Positions 7,161 to 26,429 of a stretch of 28,304 bases of DNA are shown here, piece by piece. The stretch is from a virus. The notes beneath the pieces were generated by a model. The model did no database searches. It was not told the origin of the DNA and saw only the letters and a program-made list of their open reading frames with translations. Made by a program: the position numbers and the translations under genes. The stretch covers positions 1 to 28,304 of the IMG/VR virus record IMGVR_UViG_3300045454_000022. One strand, written 5' to 3'. Every line of letters starts with the position of its first letter. Positions within the stretch are counted from its first letter, which is position 1.

Positions 7161-7682
7161 CTAGATAGAAGCTTCCTCGATGAGACGAGCCTTGCGCTTC
7201 TCGTAGCTTCGATGCTTGCTTTCTTTACTGCACGTCTTGCATGCGTTGATGAAGCGTGAGTCGGATCGTCTCACTCGCAAGATGTTCTCAGGTTTGAGCG
7301 GATGACCGTTCCTGCAGACGCTCCGATTCATAAGAGAATGAGAACCCCTGCGAACATTCTCGCTCTGCGTAATCGGCTCAAGATGTGATGGACGCACGCA
7401 AAGCACATTTCTGCACAGGTGGTCAACAACCCAACCTTCGGGTATTCGCGCGCCCTCCGAGCCATCGAGGTAAGCGATTCGGTGGGCCATGATCATCCGC
7501 GATCCGATGCGGAACGAACCGTACCGTCTTGCACCAGCCGTTCCAGCAGTCCACCGCCAGCATTCGCCGGTCGCTGTCGACAAAGGGTCCAGAGTGTGGG
7601 CGAGTCCACCATTTCGGTCGACCTTCTGCCAAAAGCGTGAGCGGTCGCTTCCGCCCAGCCACCAGCCTGTATCGTTTTCCAT
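7161..7682 (-). CDS. Free-standing HNH homing endonuclease
   Basis: This 173-aa protein has the phage HNH_3-type core. It contains ECWRWTAGTAGARRYGSFRI, then RMIMAHRIAYLD, VVDHLCRNVLCVRPSHLEP and TQSENVRRG. The C-terminal 60 residues hold a second zinc module (CRNGHPLKPENILRV, then CKTCSKE) also seen in two other HNH proteins of this window. ATG at 7680-7682 has GAGGAG 5 nt upstream. Stem-loops flank the gene on both sides, and it breaks the otherwise overlapping gene chain, so it looks like an inserted selfish element with its own transcription unit. The target site is unknown. Confidence 0.85.
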   Translation of the reverse strand: MENDTGWWLGGSDRSRFWQKVDRNGGLAHTLDPLSTATGECWRWTAGTAGARRYGSFRIGSRMIMAHRIAYLDGSEGARIPEGWVVDHLCRNVLCVRPSHLEPITQSENVRRGSHSLMNRSVCRNGHPLKPENILRVRRSDSRFINACKTCSKESKHRSYEKRKARLIEEASI

Positions 7683-10137: not shown

Positions 10138-10435
10138 CGTCAGCACCTCCCCACGAGTCCTGCGCGGCCGGCTCGTGCTTGACGACCTGCGGCTGGTTCA
10201 GGGAAACGCCCACGTACGTCTTCCCGTTGCGTTCCGACTTCTTCCACGACAGCCAGCCCTTCACCGCGATCCGGTCGCCCTGGTTCACGGGGGTCTCGAG
10301 CCGCCACACGGTGACGTAGTCGGGGTAGGCCGACCTTTCGTTCTTGACCTCGATCGTGAATCGCCCTTCGGCTGTTCTGCCTACGGTCCCCGCGACCTGC
10401 GCGTAGATGCCGTCCTTGATCTGATCCGTTCCCAT
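10118..10435 (-). CDS. ssb: Single-stranded DNA-binding protein
   Basis: The 105-aa protein has a compact OB-fold-like body (IYAQVAGTVGRTAEGRFTIE; TVWRLETPVNQGDRIAVKG; KTYVGVSLNQPQ) and an acidic tail ending GGADDGSSPF. The final acidic stretch followed by a terminal Pro-Phe is typical of SSB proteins, where it docks partner enzymes. It is shorter than host SSB (about 160-180 aa), as is common in phages. ATG at 10433-10435 overlaps the HNH stop as TAATG, and GAGG lies upstream. It sits in the replication operon after DnaB and would coat unwound DNA. Confidence 0.8.
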   Translation of the reverse strand: MGTDQIKDGIYAQVAGTVGRTAEGRFTIEVKNERSAYPDYVTVWRLETPVNQGDRIAVKGWLSWKKSERNGKTYVGVSLNQPQVVKHEPAAQDSWGGADDGSSPF

Positions 10436-10932
10436 TAGCTCTTCCTCTCGTTGAGCCGAGCGCGCCGCTCGACTTGGTTTTCGCGGTTGCAGATTCGGCA
10501 GCTGCGGCGTCCGCGCGGGCTCATGTAGGTTGTCTCGGCCGTGTACTCGTGGCCGCGTGAGCATTGCGTGACAGTCCAGCGGCCCTTCTTGCTTCGGCCA
10601 TGCATGACCATGTCGCGCATGTTCGCCTGATGGGTGTCCCAGCGGAGGTTGTCGAGGTGGTTGTTGGTTGGGTCGCCATCGGCGTGACACACCTCCAGTT
10701 CGGGGTAGTTGCCGAGAAAGGCGATGGCTACAAGTCGGTGCACGTACCGGGAAACGACCACTCCGTCTTTCCACAACCGAACGACCATCCGGCCGTTCTT
10801 GATTCGGTTAGGGCTGAGAACATCTCCGGCTTTCGCCTTCTTGCCCGAGTCGGTCACCCGCCGGACACGTCCTACCGAAGAGACTTCGTACGTATCTGGA
10901 AACTCAGCGACGGGAAGCCAGATCTCACTCAT
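10435..10932 (-). CDS. NUMOD4/HNH homing endonuclease
   Basis: This 165-aa protein starts with a NUMOD4-type segment (MSEIWLPVAEFPDTYEVSSV) followed by GRVRR. The HNH core is VHRLVAIAFLGNYPELEVCH then DGDPTNNHLDNLRWDT. The C terminus has the CSRGHEYTAETTY...CRICNRE zinc module shared with two other HNH proteins here. ATG at 10930-10932 has GGAG 7 nt upstream. The gene is wedged between DnaB (8-nt overlap) and SSB (TAATG overlap), a typical landing place for a free-standing homing nuclease inside replication genes. Its start context suggests it is translated with the operon. Confidence 0.88.
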   Translation of the reverse strand: MSEIWLPVAEFPDTYEVSSVGRVRRVTDSGKKAKAGDVLSPNRIKNGRMVVRLWKDGVVVSRYVHRLVAIAFLGNYPELEVCHADGDPTNNHLDNLRWDTHQANMRDMVMHGRSKKGRWTVTQCSRGHEYTAETTYMSPRGRRSCRICNRENQVERRARLNERKS

Positions 10933-12181
10933 GTGTTTCTCCGTTCGTGTAGTCGTATTCGATGGCTCGTGAGTACATGCCGTCCCAGAGGAGACGGGCT
11001 TCACCGGTGGGGCCGTGCCGGTTCTTCGCGACGTCCATGACGAGGTCGACGTTCGCCCGGATGTCTTCGACCTCGCCCTCCTTGCGGAGGAGGATCACGA
11101 CGTCGGCGTCTTGTTCGATGGCGCCCGACTCTCGGAGGTCGGACAGCTTGGGGATGGCGAGGGTCGACGATTCGCTGTTGCGGTTCAACTGGGACAGGGC
11201 GATGACGGGGACCTGGAAGTCCTTCGCCATGACCTTCAGCTGCCGCGAGAACTCAGCGACCTGCAGGTGCCGGTCCTGCTTCTGCTTGGACGACATCAGC
11301 TGCATGTAGTCGACGACGATCCCGGACAGCACACCGTGTCGCTGGACCGCTCGGGCGAACGTGCGCACGTCGGATGTGGAGATCCCTGACCGGTCGTCGA
11401 TCGCGATGCTGAGTCCCTCGAGGGTGGTGCGACCACGCTCGAACACGTCCCAGTCGTGCGGGGTCATCCGGGCGTCCTTGATCTTGCCGACGCCGATGCG
11501 GAGCCGTTCGGAGATGAATCGGGACACGAGCTCCTCGTCGGTCATCTCGAGGCTGGAGAACGCGACGTTCCCGTGCTGTGCCAGTTGCACGGCGATCTGC
11601 GCTGCCACGACGGTCTTCCCGACCCCGGGGCGGGCGGCGATGACGTACACCGCGCCGGGGCGGAACCCACCGATGGCCTTGTTGAGCGTCTTCCACGGGG
11701 ACGGGACGAACACCGCATCCGAGTTCAGCCGGTTCACCACGTCAGGAAGGACGTCCTTCACGAACCGGAGCTTCTGGGGTGGGTTGCCGATGGCTGTCTC
11801 GACGATGGTGCGGGCACGGTCGGCGAGCTCTGCCGCGTCGGCTGTGTCTTCTGCTTGTGCGAGCGCAGCGCCGGCCGCGGCGAGCCGTCTGCGCAGCGCG
11901 TGCTTCGCGACGATCGCGGCGTAGTACTCGGCTGAGGCCGCGGCGACAGGCGCTGAGGTGAGGGACCAGACGAACGCGGCGTCCACCGTAGGGTTCTCGG
12001 TGAGGGTGAACGCGTCGACGGGCTTCTCCGCATCGTGAGCGGCTACCATCAGCGCGAACAGGTCGCCCCGCTTCGGTTCGTAGAAGTCGTCCGGGCTGAG
12101 ACGGATCTCGTCCAGAACCTTGCCCTGCGTTGCGAGGGTCACAGCGAGAACCGCGACCTCTGCCTGCTCTGACGCGCTCAT
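10925..12181 (-). CDS. dnaB: Replicative DNA helicase (DnaB-like)
   Basis: The 418-aa protein has a DnaB N-terminal helical domain (about 1-130) and a RecA-like helicase domain. Walker A is ARPGVGKT at 183-190, Walker B is VVDYMQLM at 289-296, and further motifs are SSLEMTDEEL and VPVIALSQLNR followed by SDLRESGAIEQDADVVILL. It would form a hexameric ring that unwinds the phage genome 5' to 3'. The length is somewhat below host DnaB (about 450 aa), normal for phages. ATG at 12179-12181 shares ATGA with the replication initiator gene upstream, a typical loader-helicase pairing. Confidence 0.93.
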   Translation of the reverse strand: MSASEQAEVAVLAVTLATQGKVLDEIRLSPDDFYEPKRGDLFALMVAAHDAEKPVDAFTLTENPTVDAAFVWSLTSAPVAAASAEYYAAIVAKHALRRRLAAAGAALAQAEDTADAAELADRARTIVETAIGNPPQKLRFVKDVLPDVVNRLNSDAVFVPSPWKTLNKAIGGFRPGAVYVIAARPGVGKTVVAAQIAVQLAQHGNVAFSSLEMTDEELVSRFISERLRIGVGKIKDARMTPHDWDVFERGRTTLEGLSIAIDDRSGISTSDVRTFARAVQRHGVLSGIVVDYMQLMSSKQKQDRHLQVAEFSRQLKVMAKDFQVPVIALSQLNRNSESSTLAIPKLSDLRESGAIEQDADVVILLRKEGEVEDIRANVDLVMDVAKNRHGPTGEARLLWDGMYSRAIEYDYTNGETHE

Positions 12182-17701: not shown

Positions 17702-18551
17702 GTAGTGCCTCCATCTCGGTTGCGGTATCGATGAGTCCCTGAGCTATGTGGCGTAGCTGTGAGGGGACGAACAGGTCAGACTGAGACGGGGGCACTTCCT
17801 TTTGCCCGAGGGGCCACCAGTCGGTGAGGACCCCTTCCCGCCAGTTCGGATAGGTGAAGCCGAGAAGCGTCTCCAGCGCGCGACCGATCGCCTGCGATGT
17901 GGCGACCGCGTTCTGCTGGTTCGCGGCGTCACCGGAGAGGACGGGCTTCGGTGCCCGCGGCTTAACGGAGTACTTCTTCCCGTCGCCGCCGGTGACGACA
18001 CGGGTCTTCTCGGTGACGGTGTGCTCGGTGACGGTCGGTTCCGTGATATCACCCGTTGTCAGATTCACGGTGGCGGGGTCGAGTCCCGAATGCTCAGACC
18101 CCGCCACCTCCTCGACGGGAGGCTCGGCCGAAGCCGGGTGGAGGTCCTCAACCGGAGGTTCAGGCAGGTGGTGCAATGCACCACGTTCGCGGATGCGCCC
18201 GACCGTTGTGTGGGCGACGCCGGTGCGCTTGGCGTGTTCGCGGTCGGAAAGGTCCGGGTCGGCCTTCACGCTTTCCTCTACCAGGCGGCGCTTCTGCTCA
18301 CGGGTGAGGTGGCGGCGGTCGATGTTCAGGGTGAGCGCGAGCGTGCGCTTCTGCGCGTCGCTGAGACCCGTCTTCGTGCGCTTCGGGTAGTCGATCCCGA
18401 GACGGTCGGCGATCTCCTTGCGGTGGTGCCCGTCAATGACGGACCCGTTCTCGTCGAGGATGATCGGCACCTGGATGCCGTGCTCGGTGATCGACGATTC
18501 GAGCTTCTGGTAGTCCTCGTCGGAGAGACGGGGAAGGAACTGGTACAGCAT
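17688..18551 (-). CDS. ParB-like nuclease/DNA-binding protein
   Basis: The 287-aa protein starts with a ParB/Srx-type domain: RLSDEDYQKLESSITEHGIQ, VPIILDENGSVIDGHHRKEI, then ADRLGIDYP. The GHHR motif corresponds to the CTP-binding GxxR of ParB. A HTH follows (SDREHAKRTGVAHTTVGRIR, about 103-122). The middle is acidic and proline-rich, and a C-terminal helical region ends MEALHVQK. Phage ParB-like proteins may be regulators or nucleases rather than partition proteins, and no ParA is seen here. ATG overlaps the HTH gene stop as TGATG. This is the second gene of the long operon. Confidence 0.8.
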   Translation of the reverse strand: MLYQFLPRLSDEDYQKLESSITEHGIQVPIILDENGSVIDGHHRKEIADRLGIDYPKRTKTGLSDAQKRTLALTLNIDRRHLTREQKRRLVEESVKADPDLSDREHAKRTGVAHTTVGRIRERGALHHLPEPPVEDLHPASAEPPVEEVAGSEHSGLDPATVNLTTGDITEPTVTEHTVTEKTRVVTGGDGKKYSVKPRAPKPVLSGDAANQQNAVATSQAIGRALETLLGFTYPNWREGVLTDWWPLGQKEVPPSQSDLFVPSQLRHIAQGLIDTATEMEALHVQK

Positions 18552-18742
18552 CAGGCTGCGGGGGTGGATCGTGCCGCTTCGAGGGCTCTGACCGTTTCTT
18601 CGGTGAAGACGAACGCGCCTCTGGTGCCTGGCATCTGCTGGGCGGGGTACTCGCCGGACTTAGCCTTGCGGTGGATCGTGCGGACGCTTTCACCGAGTCT
18701 GTCGGCCACTTCCCTCGTGGACACAAGTCGATTTTCAGTCAT
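18551..18742 (-). CDS. Excisionase/Cro-like MerR-type HTH protein, 63 aa
   Basis: The protein reads MTENRLVSTREVADRLGESV, then RTIHRKAKSGEYPAQQMPGT and FVFTEETVRALEAAR. This is a winged helix of the MerR/excisionase type (V-x-x-R-E-V-A-D-R-L, then a wing with AQQMPGTRG). It faces the repressor, so it could be an excisionase or a Cro-like switch protein that opens the lytic operon. ATG at 18740-18742 has no Shine-Dalgarno but lies 6 nt after AAGACT, predicting a leaderless mRNA. The longer frame up to 18853 crosses the promoter and is rejected. Confidence 0.75.
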   Translation of the reverse strand: MTENRLVSTREVADRLGESVRTIHRKAKSGEYPAQQMPGTRGAFVFTEETVRALEAARSTPAA

Positions 18743-18831
18743 ATGAGCAGTCTTGCACGGGTGACGAAAGAGCGCAAGTGACCACCCTCGGTCCATTGCC
18801 GGGTCTCCGACCCGTGACGTATCATCGTCAT
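18743..18831. promoter_or_regulatory. Divergent lysis-lysogeny switch region
   Basis: Plus side: -35 TTGCCG (18796-18801), 18-nt spacer, -10 TATCAT (18820-18825), 6 nt, repressor ATG at 18832. Minus side: -35 TTGCGC (plus-strand 18772-18777), 17-nt spacer, -10 AAGACT (18749-18754), 6 nt, ATG of the HTH gene. Between the plus -35 and -10 lies a perfect palindrome CGGGTC-TCC-GACCCG (18800-18814), overlapping the last bases of the -35 and well placed for autoregulation by the repressor. Both genes should have leaderless messages. Confidence 0.65.
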
Positions 18832-19167
18832 ATGGCGAATCAGGCAGAGGCACAGCCTCAATTTCAGGAACAGCCCTTTCACACCGGCGACCGCATGCGG
18901 AAGGCCCGAGAACGCACTGGCATGGACATTCAGACGTTCGCGGAGAAGGTCGGCATCAACCGCGGCACGCTCGCGAAGTACGAGACCACTGGGGCGGCGA
19001 AGCGCACCGCGCTTATCGCGGTGTCGATGGCGACCGGCGCGCGCCTCGAATGGCTCCAGACGGGCGAGCTCCCCTGGCTAAGAGACGACGCCGACCGTCG
19101 CGTTAACGATCTGAAACCGAACGATCACGGGACGATAACGGACATCTTCACCCGCCAGTCGCTCTGA
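18832..19167 (+). CDS. Immunity repressor (XRE-type HTH)
   Basis: The 111-aa protein has a flexible Gln-rich N terminus followed by a clear XRE helix-turn-helix: RMRKARERTGMDIQTFAEKV, then GINRGTLAKYETTGAAKR. Later residues (ARLEWLQTGELPWLRDD) are typical of phage repressor/HTH proteins of this size. There is no peptidase domain, so it is not a LexA/CI self-cleaving type. ATG at 18832 is chosen because it is 6 nt after the -10 box; an in-frame ATG at 18778 lies upstream of the promoter. Integrase follows 84 nt downstream, likely in the same transcript. Confidence 0.8.
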   Translation: MANQAEAQPQFQEQPFHTGDRMRKARERTGMDIQTFAEKVGINRGTLAKYETTGAAKRTALIAVSMATGARLEWLQTGELPWLRDDADRRVNDLKPNDHGTITDIFTRQSL

Positions 19168-19211
19168 CCTAGCCATGCCATGACCGCCATATCAAGGACT
19201 AGAACGAACCT

Positions 19212-19251
19212 GATCCCCCTCCCTATGGTCAACGCCACAAGGAGGGGGATC
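19212..19251 (+). promoter_or_regulatory. RNA hairpin sequestering the integrase ribosome binding site
   Basis: GATCCCCCTCC (19212-19222) is the exact reverse complement of GGAGGGGGATC (19241-19251), with an 18-nt loop. The right arm contains the Shine-Dalgarno AGGAGG core and runs up to the base before the integrase ATG (19252). Folding should block initiation. An in-frame ATG at 19225 lies in the loop and another at 19180 upstream; translation from either would melt the stem. This is likely a control point for integrase synthesis. Confidence 0.65.
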
Positions 19252-20022
19252 ATGATTGACGCATACAAAATGTTCGTCGCGAACGAGACCCGGTCACAGT
19301 CGACCATCCGAATTCGCTACCACTACATCGACCGACTGACCGCCGACCTCGACGTGGAGGCGGCAACCGAAACGCAACTCGAGACATGGCTGAGATCGCA
19401 TGGGTGGGCGCCATCATCGGTGAACTGTGCCCTTGCGTCGATACGCCACTTCTACCGGTGGGCTGAGAGGTACGGCCACATACCCGACAACCCGACGAAG
19501 TGGCTTCGCCGCGTTCGGGTGCCGCGGAAGACCGGCAGGATAGCCTCCGACGACGCAATCCTGCACGGCATGGGGACTTGCTCCGCGTCCACGCGCGTGA
19601 TGATTCTCCTCGGCGCTGAGTGCGGGCTCAGACGGGCCGAGATTGCCGCCGTCCACCGGGACGACTTCGACGGCGACTGGCTCTACGTCATCGGGAAGGG
19701 CGGACACCAGCGGAGCGTGCACGTATCCCCCGAACTGATCGAACTTCTTCCCTACCTCCCGGCTGAGGGTTGGCTGTTCCCCAGCGGAGACGGCCACCTA
19801 TCCGGGGACGCCGTGTACCAGCGCATCCGCCGCGCGCTCGGAGTCAACCCGCACGCGCTCAGACACCGCGCCGGCACCGTCGTCTACGAGAAGACCGGCA
19901 ACAACATCCGCGTGGCGCAGGAGTTCCTCGGCCACCAGCGCCCCGAGACAACAGCCCGGTACGTGCATGTGACGCGCGGAGACCTGGCCCGCGCTTCCCG
20001 CGCGGCACGTCTCGCCGCCTGA
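19252..20022 (+). CDS. int: Tyrosine integrase
   Basis: The 256-aa protein has a SAM-like N-terminal DNA-binding domain (about 1-85, with APSSVNCALASIRHFYRWAE) and a catalytic domain with the tyrosine-recombinase residues R127 (ECGLRRAEIAAV), K149 (GKGGHQRS), H201 and R204 (HALRHRAGTV), H228 (FLGHQRPETT) and nucleophile Y237 (ARYVHV). It lacks the long arm-binding domain, like other short actinophage integrases. It ends AARLAA; a terminal LAA resembles the ssrA degradation tag. ATG at 19252 has AAGGAGG upstream, hidden in a hairpin. It inserts phage DNA into the host chromosome; attP was not recognised. Confidence 0.92.
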   Translation: MIDAYKMFVANETRSQSTIRIRYHYIDRLTADLDVEAATETQLETWLRSHGWAPSSVNCALASIRHFYRWAERYGHIPDNPTKWLRRVRVPRKTGRIASDDAILHGMGTCSASTRVMILLGAECGLRRAEIAAVHRDDFDGDWLYVIGKGGHQRSVHVSPELIELLPYLPAEGWLFPSGDGHLSGDAVYQRIRRALGVNPHALRHRAGTVVYEKTGNNIRVAQEFLGHQRPETTARYVHVTRGDLARASRAARLAA

Positions 20023-20028
20023 ACGACG

Positions 20029-20073
20029 AAAGCCCCCCCCTTATCCGCATTCACAGCGGGAGGGGGGGCTTTT
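20029..20073 (+). terminator. Intrinsic terminator after integrase
   Basis: AAAGCCCCCCC (from 20029) pairs with GGGGGGGCTTT (20062-20072), giving an 11-bp stem with a loop of about 22 nt, then TTTT. It starts 7 nt after the integrase stop. It closes the repressor-integrase transcript and isolates the early plus genes, whose promoter lies about 35 nt further on. Confidence 0.85.
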
Positions 20074-24498: not shown

Positions 24499-24671
24499 GT
24501 CCCGCTCCCCCCATCCGTGTGGTTCACGCGGAGCTTCGCGACTAGGCCTTCGACCCGCTGGCGGCAGCGTGCGATGTGGGCAGGGCGCCCGATGCGTTCG
24601 GCGTTCGCGAGTCGCTCGCGCGCGTAGGCGAGGCGGTCTTGCAGGGTCTCGGTCGCATGCGCGGTGTTCAT
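24495..24671 (-). CDS. Small helical protein, 58 aa
   Basis: ATG at 24669-24671 lies inside the first palindrome and 6 nt after an extended -10 (TGC-TAGTAT), so a leaderless message is predicted. The protein reads MNTAHATETLQDRLAYARER, LANAERIGRPAHIARCRQRV and EGLVAKLRVNHTDGGSGT: a basic helix with a leucine-heptad tendency. It shares GTGA with the GNAT-like gene. The function is unknown; it may be a partner of the GNAT-like protein. Confidence 0.65.
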   Translation of the reverse strand: MNTAHATETLQDRLAYARERLANAERIGRPAHIARCRQRVEGLVAKLRVNHTDGGSGT

Positions 24672-24725
24672 ACATGGATACTAGCAGGTGTATGAACACC
24701 GCGCTAGACTGGGTGTATGTACACC
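24661..24725. promoter_or_regulatory. Divergent promoter with three palindromic operators
   Basis: Three copies of GGTGT-N4-ACACC-like boxes lie at 24663-24676 (half-conserved), 24687-24700 (GGTGTATGAACACC) and 24712-24725 (GGTGTATGTACACC), spaced 24 and 25 nt. In addition GCGGTGTTCATACA (24661-24674) is the exact reverse complement of 24689-24702. The -10 boxes are TAGTAT (minus, plus-strand 24678-24683) and TAGACT (plus, 24705-24710), each 6 nt before an ATG. Operators cover both starts, so a bound protein would block both promoters. Confidence 0.65.
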
Positions 24726-25310
24726 ACGGCAGAAAGACTTAAGCGAACCCGAGGCCTGATCCGCGAAGTCGCCACCCATTACGGCATCGCATACAAGGTG
24801 CGCTGGATGACCGGGGAGGGGCGCAAGACGCAGCAGAAGACGTTCAGAGACCGGGCGGAGGCGGAGCGGTTCAGGGAGTCACTGCCGTACATCACCGACC
24901 GGACACGGGTAGCCCGTGTCACGAACCGCGTCACCCGCGACGGTTCCGGATGCTGGGTCGTTTCGGGGTCTGTCGCCTCCAACGGATACCCGCACGTCGG
25001 CTTCGACTGGGAGAAGCAGTCCACACATCGGGTGATGTTCGAGGAGTGGTACGGGCCAATCCCGGATGGCCTGGAGATTGACCACATCTGCCGCAACAAG
25101 CGCTGCTGCAACCCCGAACACCTGGAACCCGTTCCACCCGCCGAGAACTTCCTACGAGGCGAGCACCCCACGGCTGTCGCAGTCCGGACGGGGCGCTGCT
25201 ACCGCGGTCACGAACTGACGGAGGAGAACACGGTCTGGTACCGCAACGGGAAGCGAACCTGCCGCCAGTGCCGCGACGATCGAATGGCGCGATACCGCCT
25301 GACCGCCTAG
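24717..25310 (+). CDS. HNH homing-type endonuclease, 197 aa
   Basis: The N-terminal 60 residues (IREVATHYGIAYKVRWMTGE, then EAERFRESLPYITDRTR) are a basic DNA-binding-like extension. The HNH core is GCWVVSGSVASNGYPHVGFD, THRVMFEEWYG and LEIDHICRNKRCCNPEHLEP. The C-terminal zinc module (GRCYRGHELTEENTVWY, then CRQCRDD) matches that of the nucleases at 7161 and 10435. ATG at 24717 lies 6 nt after TAGACT and inside the third palindrome. Its expression is probably tied to the same operators as the opposite genes, which is unusual for a homing nuclease. Confidence 0.85.
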   Translation: MYTTAERLKRTRGLIREVATHYGIAYKVRWMTGEGRKTQQKTFRDRAEAERFRESLPYITDRTRVARVTNRVTRDGSGCWVVSGSVASNGYPHVGFDWEKQSTHRVMFEEWYGPIPDGLEIDHICRNKRCCNPEHLEPVPPAENFLRGEHPTAVAVRTGRCYRGHELTEENTVWYRNGKRTCRQCRDDRMARYRLTA

Positions 25311-26321: not shown

Positions 26322-26333
26322 CGGAACACAAGA

Positions 26334-26376
26334 ACGCCCCGCGTCCACCCACCCGAAGGTGGGGGACGCGGGGCGT
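26334..26376. terminator. Long hairpin between converging lipoprotein and tail fibre genes
   Basis: ACGCCCCGCGTCC (26334-26346) pairs perfectly with GGACGCGGGGCGT (26364-26376); inside it CCCACC (26348-26353) pairs with GGTGGG (26358-26363) around a CGAA tetraloop. It lies 12 nt after the lipoprotein stop and about 53 nt after the tail fibre stop. There is no strong U-tract, but it sits where a bidirectional terminator is needed. Confidence 0.7.
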
Positions 26377-26429
26377 CGATGTGTATCTATCTGCGTTCGA
26401 TAGGTGGAGTAGGGGCCGGGGGGAAGACC

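Follow-up and report, generated by a model that had tools for sequence, protein, structure and literature searches.

Integration-dependent immunity, in which the lysogeny decision of actinophages rests in part on integration frequency and hence on the level of the integrase (Int), has its type case in the cluster G mycobacteriophages, where attP lies within the repressor gene rep, and C-terminal proteolysis signals are carried by Int and by the phage form of Rep (PMC4557955). In the cluster G phage BPs a single promoter, P_rep, serves both rep and int (PMC4557955), and int is thus read from a long message. The criteria by which such systems are recognized are a rep gene directly 5' of a tyrosine integrase gene and divergent from xis/cro, an AA tag on Rep, an attP within rep, a prophage Rep shorter than the phage Rep, and an Int with a C-terminal proteolysis signal (PMC9934374).

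The window analysed here (the whole stretch of DNA, 28,304 bases, GC ~64%) is an actinophage-like genome fragment, and its large terminase displays 46% identity to the terminases of Microbacterium phage Footloose and Bifidobacterium phage Bbif-1. The integration and immunity module at 18.5-20.1 kb comprises an excisionase/Cro-like HTH gene on the minus strand (18551..18742; PHROG 66 excisionase/regulator, E 3.7e-8), divergent from rep, and two plus-strand genes: rep itself (18832..19167), which encodes an HTH repressor of 111 amino acids (PHROG 2328 repressor, E 7e-15), and int (19252..20022), which encodes a tyrosine integrase of 256 amino acids (Pfam PF00589, E 1.5e-16; PHROG integrase). A similarity search with rep returned a single weak match. 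The start predicted from a putative P_rep (TTGCCG-18-TATCAT, 18796..18825, plus strand; a consensus match only) coincides with the rep ATG, so that rep looks leaderless. On the 3' side of int an inverted repeat predicted to fold into a strong hairpin (20029..20072, plus strand; AAAGCCCCCCC and GGGGGGGCTTT, then TTTTGGTT) probably terminates the rep-int message, and is probably a two-way terminator. Elsewhere in the window, a perfect 16-bp inverted repeat with a 14-nt spacer (GCGCGGTGTTCATACA / TGTATGAACACCGCGC, 24659-24704) lies between divergent open reading frames (ORFs), and a 24-bp inverted repeat (83%) at 26326-26384, a probable terminator, is located just beyond the end of a minus-strand tail gene. 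Three ORFs (7161-7682, 10435-11004 and 24717-25310) have, as judged by eye, the look of HNH homing-type endonucleases, with the motifs VDHLCRN, VCHADGDPTNN and IDHICRNKRC.

Similar to the integration-dependent systems, all five relatives compared (L003-L007) and the window share the order leftward xis/cro, rightward rep and rightward int, and in the window rep lies directly upstream of the tyrosine integrase gene and is divergent from xis/cro. The best-annotated relatives of Int, at 34-38% identity, are those of the Gordonia phages EricDab, SallySpecial, Rahul and Coeur and of the cluster G mycobacteriophages (BPs/Angel). The C-terminus of Int reads RLAA in the window and SRLAA in the viral contig L008, the closest relative found, and would be consistent with a proteolysis signal; an Int ending in AA is common to the window and the Gordonia phages. 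It should be emphasized, however, that Rep of the window ends in TRQSL rather than in an ssrA-like AA tag (among upstream ORFs of the relatives, picked mechanically, 20 of 47 end in AA), and that attP was not located. The window shows no tRNA-like stretch, and neither an integrated copy nor a host genome was found. The best DNA match between the window and L008 in the 3' end of rep, CGTTAACGATCTGAAAC, is within chance expectation. Thus, the module is similar to, but not a member of, the integration-dependent immunity systems.

What sets the locus apart is an inverted repeat at the start of int. The left, or anti-SD, arm (TGATCCCCCTCC, 19211..19222, plus strand) is the exact reverse complement of the right arm (GGAGGGGGATCA, 19241..19252, plus strand), which contains GGAGG of the Shine-Dalgarno (SD) sequence and the first base, A, of the int start codon. 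The initial annotation described a perfect 11-bp hairpin directly before int with AGGAGG in its right arm; the stem is indeed perfect, but it is 12 bp long, as T19211 pairs with A19252, and of the SD (AGGAGG, 19240..19245, plus strand, 6 nt from the ATG) five of the six bases are in the stem while the first A (19240) is in the loop. The 18-nt loop (CTATGGTCAACGCCACAA, 19223..19240, plus strand) is predicted to form a short inner helix, closed by extra UGG/CCA pairs and interrupted by two A-C mismatches. As previously noted, the loop holds an in-frame ATG (19225..19227, plus strand) and another lies at 19180. The loop ATG has no SD of its own, and no stop codon separates either ATG from the one at 19252, whose frame they share. 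The plus strand continues after the hairpin as TGATTGACG, which is not the U run of an intrinsic terminator. A scan of Rfam returned nothing reaching threshold, its weak matches (the lambda cIII thermoregulator and others) lying elsewhere or under the cutoff.

The plus-strand hairpin has a predicted stability of -29.0 kcal/mol (z -4.8), which was equalled by none of 200 shuffles, and the cost of opening the int SD is 15.6-18.9 kcal/mol. The value of 18.9 kcal/mol is the highest of the 36 gene starts in the window, the second being 13.5. When the leader was shuffled, with the SD and the sequence downstream left unchanged, the opening cost at int was matched by 0 of 400 mononucleotide, 0 of 400 dinucleotide and 1 of 400 codon shuffles. 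The start of int is therefore one at which the SD and/or the start codon lie in a stable stem beyond chance expectation. It could be argued that the repeat is a functionless product of chance. Indeed the expectation for a shuffled window is 0.33 perfect 12-bp inverted repeats with loops no longer than 60, and 21 of 100 shuffles contained one; the stem is also missing from most relatives. The presence of such a repeat at some point in 28 kb is thus not rare, but its exact placement on a strong SD is; the repeat falls on the strongest SD context, where leader shuffles match it in 0-1 of 400 cases, and L008 also has an SD-covering stem, in other letters. We regard a chance origin as very unlikely.

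The comparative evidence for the stem is confined to a narrow group. At the DNA level the phage collection contains no relative of the window, and exact Int peptides found no match in viral contigs. Only two contigs of the viral collection belong to the same Int clade, L008 (77% Int identity) and L009 (41%), and further scans of that collection found nothing closer to Int than L008; a genome scan gave one acidobacterial match, which is unrelated. In L008 the SD is covered by a stem of 8 exact base pairs (TCCCCTTC/GAAGGGGA), both arms of which differ in their letters from those of the window. The SD opening cost is 12.8 kcal/mol, a value reached by 1-3% of leader shuffles, and the stability of the L008 leader as a whole is unexceptional (z -0.75). 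L009 has the same strong SD before int but no SD hairpin, a comparable SD stem was found in none of ~70 more distant relatives (whose int starts were chosen mechanically, so that some are possibly wrong), and no SD hairpin precedes int in the BPs/Angel-type and Gordonia immunity phages examined. L009, which has the same start and SD and lacks an upstream in-frame start, does support ATG 19252 as the true start of int. With regard to conservation of pairing, which had been put forward as a check on the hairpin, L008 retains an SD-covering stem with changed arms, and L009 and the distant relatives do not. The SD-burying stem is common to two close lineages at most and is not a family trait, and a single comparison, that with L008, cannot establish covariation of the arms.

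Several observations were made in passing among these sequences. Contig L024 (2471-2508) contains a perfect 14-bp inverted repeat (CGGTGACGTCGACG / CGTCGACGTCACCG), apparently within the sequence that encodes the N-terminal region of a related integrase, and L014 (2457-2476) has, before a related integrase gene, the opposite arrangement, a 7-bp stem (TCCGATC/GATCGGA) with an SD-like GAGGGG in the loop. An integrase with 37% identity is encoded by the 16.9-kb Corynebacterium heidelbergense ‘plasmid phiDSM104638' (L094, NZ_CP063192.1), which is probably a small phage genome deposited as a plasmid. A scan of viral contigs for ATG codons preceded by this SD hairpin gave three matches, none upstream of an integrase gene. 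An identical SD-like hairpin (TCCCCCTCC...GGAGGGGGATTATG) precedes a 4-codon ORF in two AT-rich viral contigs (L098, 2754-2812; L100, 643-701).

We propose that the repeat may act as a translational lock, in cis, on int, a reading to which we give a little less than an even chance. Any mRNA containing both arms, be it the rep-int transcript or one that reads through from further upstream, would fold the 12-bp stem over the int SD and up to the start codon, so that 30S subunits would be blocked from starting at AUG 19252. That the SD is occluded in the cell is probable, given the cost of opening it. Relief of the lock by translational coupling to rep is a more tentative component, which may hold but falls somewhat short of even odds. 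With 43 nt between the rep stop and the stem, a ribosome that terminates at the end of rep would not by itself be expected to open the stem. Ribosomes ending rep could, however, restart at AUG 19180 and translate an in-frame leader of 24 codons (19180..19251, plus strand) through the stem into int, and this passage would either yield an N-extended Int or, by exposing the SD, allow initiation at 19252. Such restart coupling is favoured by the fact that in known relatives the rep promoter also drives int, and an N-extended Int is not implausible, since distant relatives commonly have N-terminal extensions of ~10-20 residues. Int output would then be limited to messages on which rep is under translation. 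The suggestion in the initial annotation that ribosomes starting upstream would open the stem fits the two sequences compared: near the end of rep each has an ATG that shares the frame of int and is open into it, which in the window follows the stop by 13 nt and in L008 overlaps it (ATGA). Shuffles place such an ATG, at no more than 20 nt from the stop of rep, in 3.3% (window) and 3.6% (L008) of cases. AUG 19180 itself has no SD. A two-codon ORF (AUGCCAUGA, 19175-19183) lies between rep and the int leader, and its stop overlaps AUG 19180.

It was further proposed that int is made only when the helix is melted, cleaved or bypassed. The computed occlusion of the SD agrees with this, but cleavage as a route past the stem found no support, and a transcript initiated in the loop would escape the stem altogether. 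In the latter case the stem would silence int only on messages arriving from upstream, and a promoter in the loop would supply a short, freely translated int message. The loop contains TATGGT (19224..19229, plus strand), a hexamer match to a -10-like TANNNT, from which transcription would start ~7 nt later, at ~19236, and exclude the left arm, lowering the SD opening cost from 15.6 to 1.9 kcal/mol. TATGGT and P_rep provide the only two TANNNT sequences on the plus strand in 18700-19300, and L008 has TACGAT at the matching position. Against such a promoter, there is no recognizable -35 element for TATGGT, a TANNNT falls between the arms by chance in 13% (window) and 16% (L008) of shuffles, the SD of the shorter L008 message is still partly closed (6.3 kcal/mol), and int of the known relatives is transcribed from P_rep. 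We consider this alternative unlikely.

A link between the lock and the state of integration is doubtful, although it would follow from the proposed arrangement if attP lay upstream of the stem, as in the relatives, in which case Int would be made only from the unintegrated genome. In its fullest form the hairpin would be a sensor of integration state, permitting Int synthesis only when rep is translated just upstream and only on unintegrated DNA. Host transcripts reading through would be unable to start int once the phage had integrated at an attP 5' of the stem. We judge this extended reading to be quite unlikely.

An alternative that dispenses with translational control is that the repeat terminates leftward, antisense transcription before it enters rep, with the overlap of the SD a by-product of position. 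On the minus strand, where G-U pairs take the place of the two A-C mismatches seen in the plus-strand fold, the repeat would form 18 continuous pairs around a 6-nt loop (-36.0 kcal/mol, z -6.6), and a terminator scan flags it as terminator-like on this strand. The minus-strand fold is thus the stronger of the two (-36 versus -29 kcal/mol), which an SD lock would not predict and which argues against the lock. The minus-strand tail, however, is GGTTCGTTCT, with no U run, no evident gene lies on the minus strand from 26430 down to 19252, and 20029-20072 already provides a two-way terminator. Furthermore, the arms in L008 are separated by a large loop and form no compact minus-strand hairpin, yet complementarity to the SD is retained. 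A role as a leftward terminator is therefore distinctly improbable. Most improbable of all is a DNA-level site (a Rep or Xis operator, or a portion of attP) that is palindromic by coincidence, for although the two perfect 12-bp half-sites are ~3 helical turns apart within the integration and immunity module, the window contains no further half-site copy above chance (15 near-matches to the arms against 14.1 expected), L008, with an Int 77% identical, does not share the arm sequences, and the half-site spacing is unsuited to a tyrosine-recombinase core. An RNA thermometer and an RNase III site were rejected, as the stem appears too strong for the former and too short for the latter.

If the translational lock on int is real, it represents an additional control point, and would explain how an int gene that lies beside foreign DNA after integration escapes activation by host transcripts. 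Were the repeat also to sense integration state, an RNA layer would be added to a switch known only through attP placement and degradation tags. If the repeat is only a terminator or a product of chance, nothing changes.

Recombinase genes of other mobile elements provide the nearest parallels to the proposed lock. In IS10 and IS50 the ribosome-binding site of the transposase gene is occluded in cis on read-through messages, while the transposase is made from its own promoter on a short message free of the fold-back. For IS200, mRNA structure features in the title of Ellis et al. 2015, as cited in PMC4963395. The locus described here resembles IS10, IS50 and IS200 in that the ribosome-binding site of a recombinase gene would be occluded in cis on long messages. 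It differs from IS10 and IS50 in that the gene is a phage integrase gene behind a repressor gene, with no homology, and in that a promoter inside the repeat is only suggested. Gene e of bacteriophage T4 offers a second parallel, as a hairpin hides its SD on long early messages and short messages starting in or near the stem are open; the phage and the polymerase programme are different, however, and the short int message of the window is only putative. In phage lambda, sib is located 3' of int and acts through RNase III. The retroregulation of lambda int is similar in that an RNA hairpin governs integrase output, but in the window the stem is instead 5', on the SD, and sib-like control is ruled out as the repeat is on the wrong side of int. 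The start-associated sequences of cluster K mycobacteriophages combine an SD element with an inverted repeat near the start codon and occur at many genes. In contrast, the element of the window is single, rather than repeated before several genes, which rules out its assignment to that class. In the freely accessible literature searched, no report was found of SD-hairpin control of a phage integrase. The mechanism proposed here is thus an ordinary one, known from other mobile elements, but its setting, in a phage of this kind, is apparently new.
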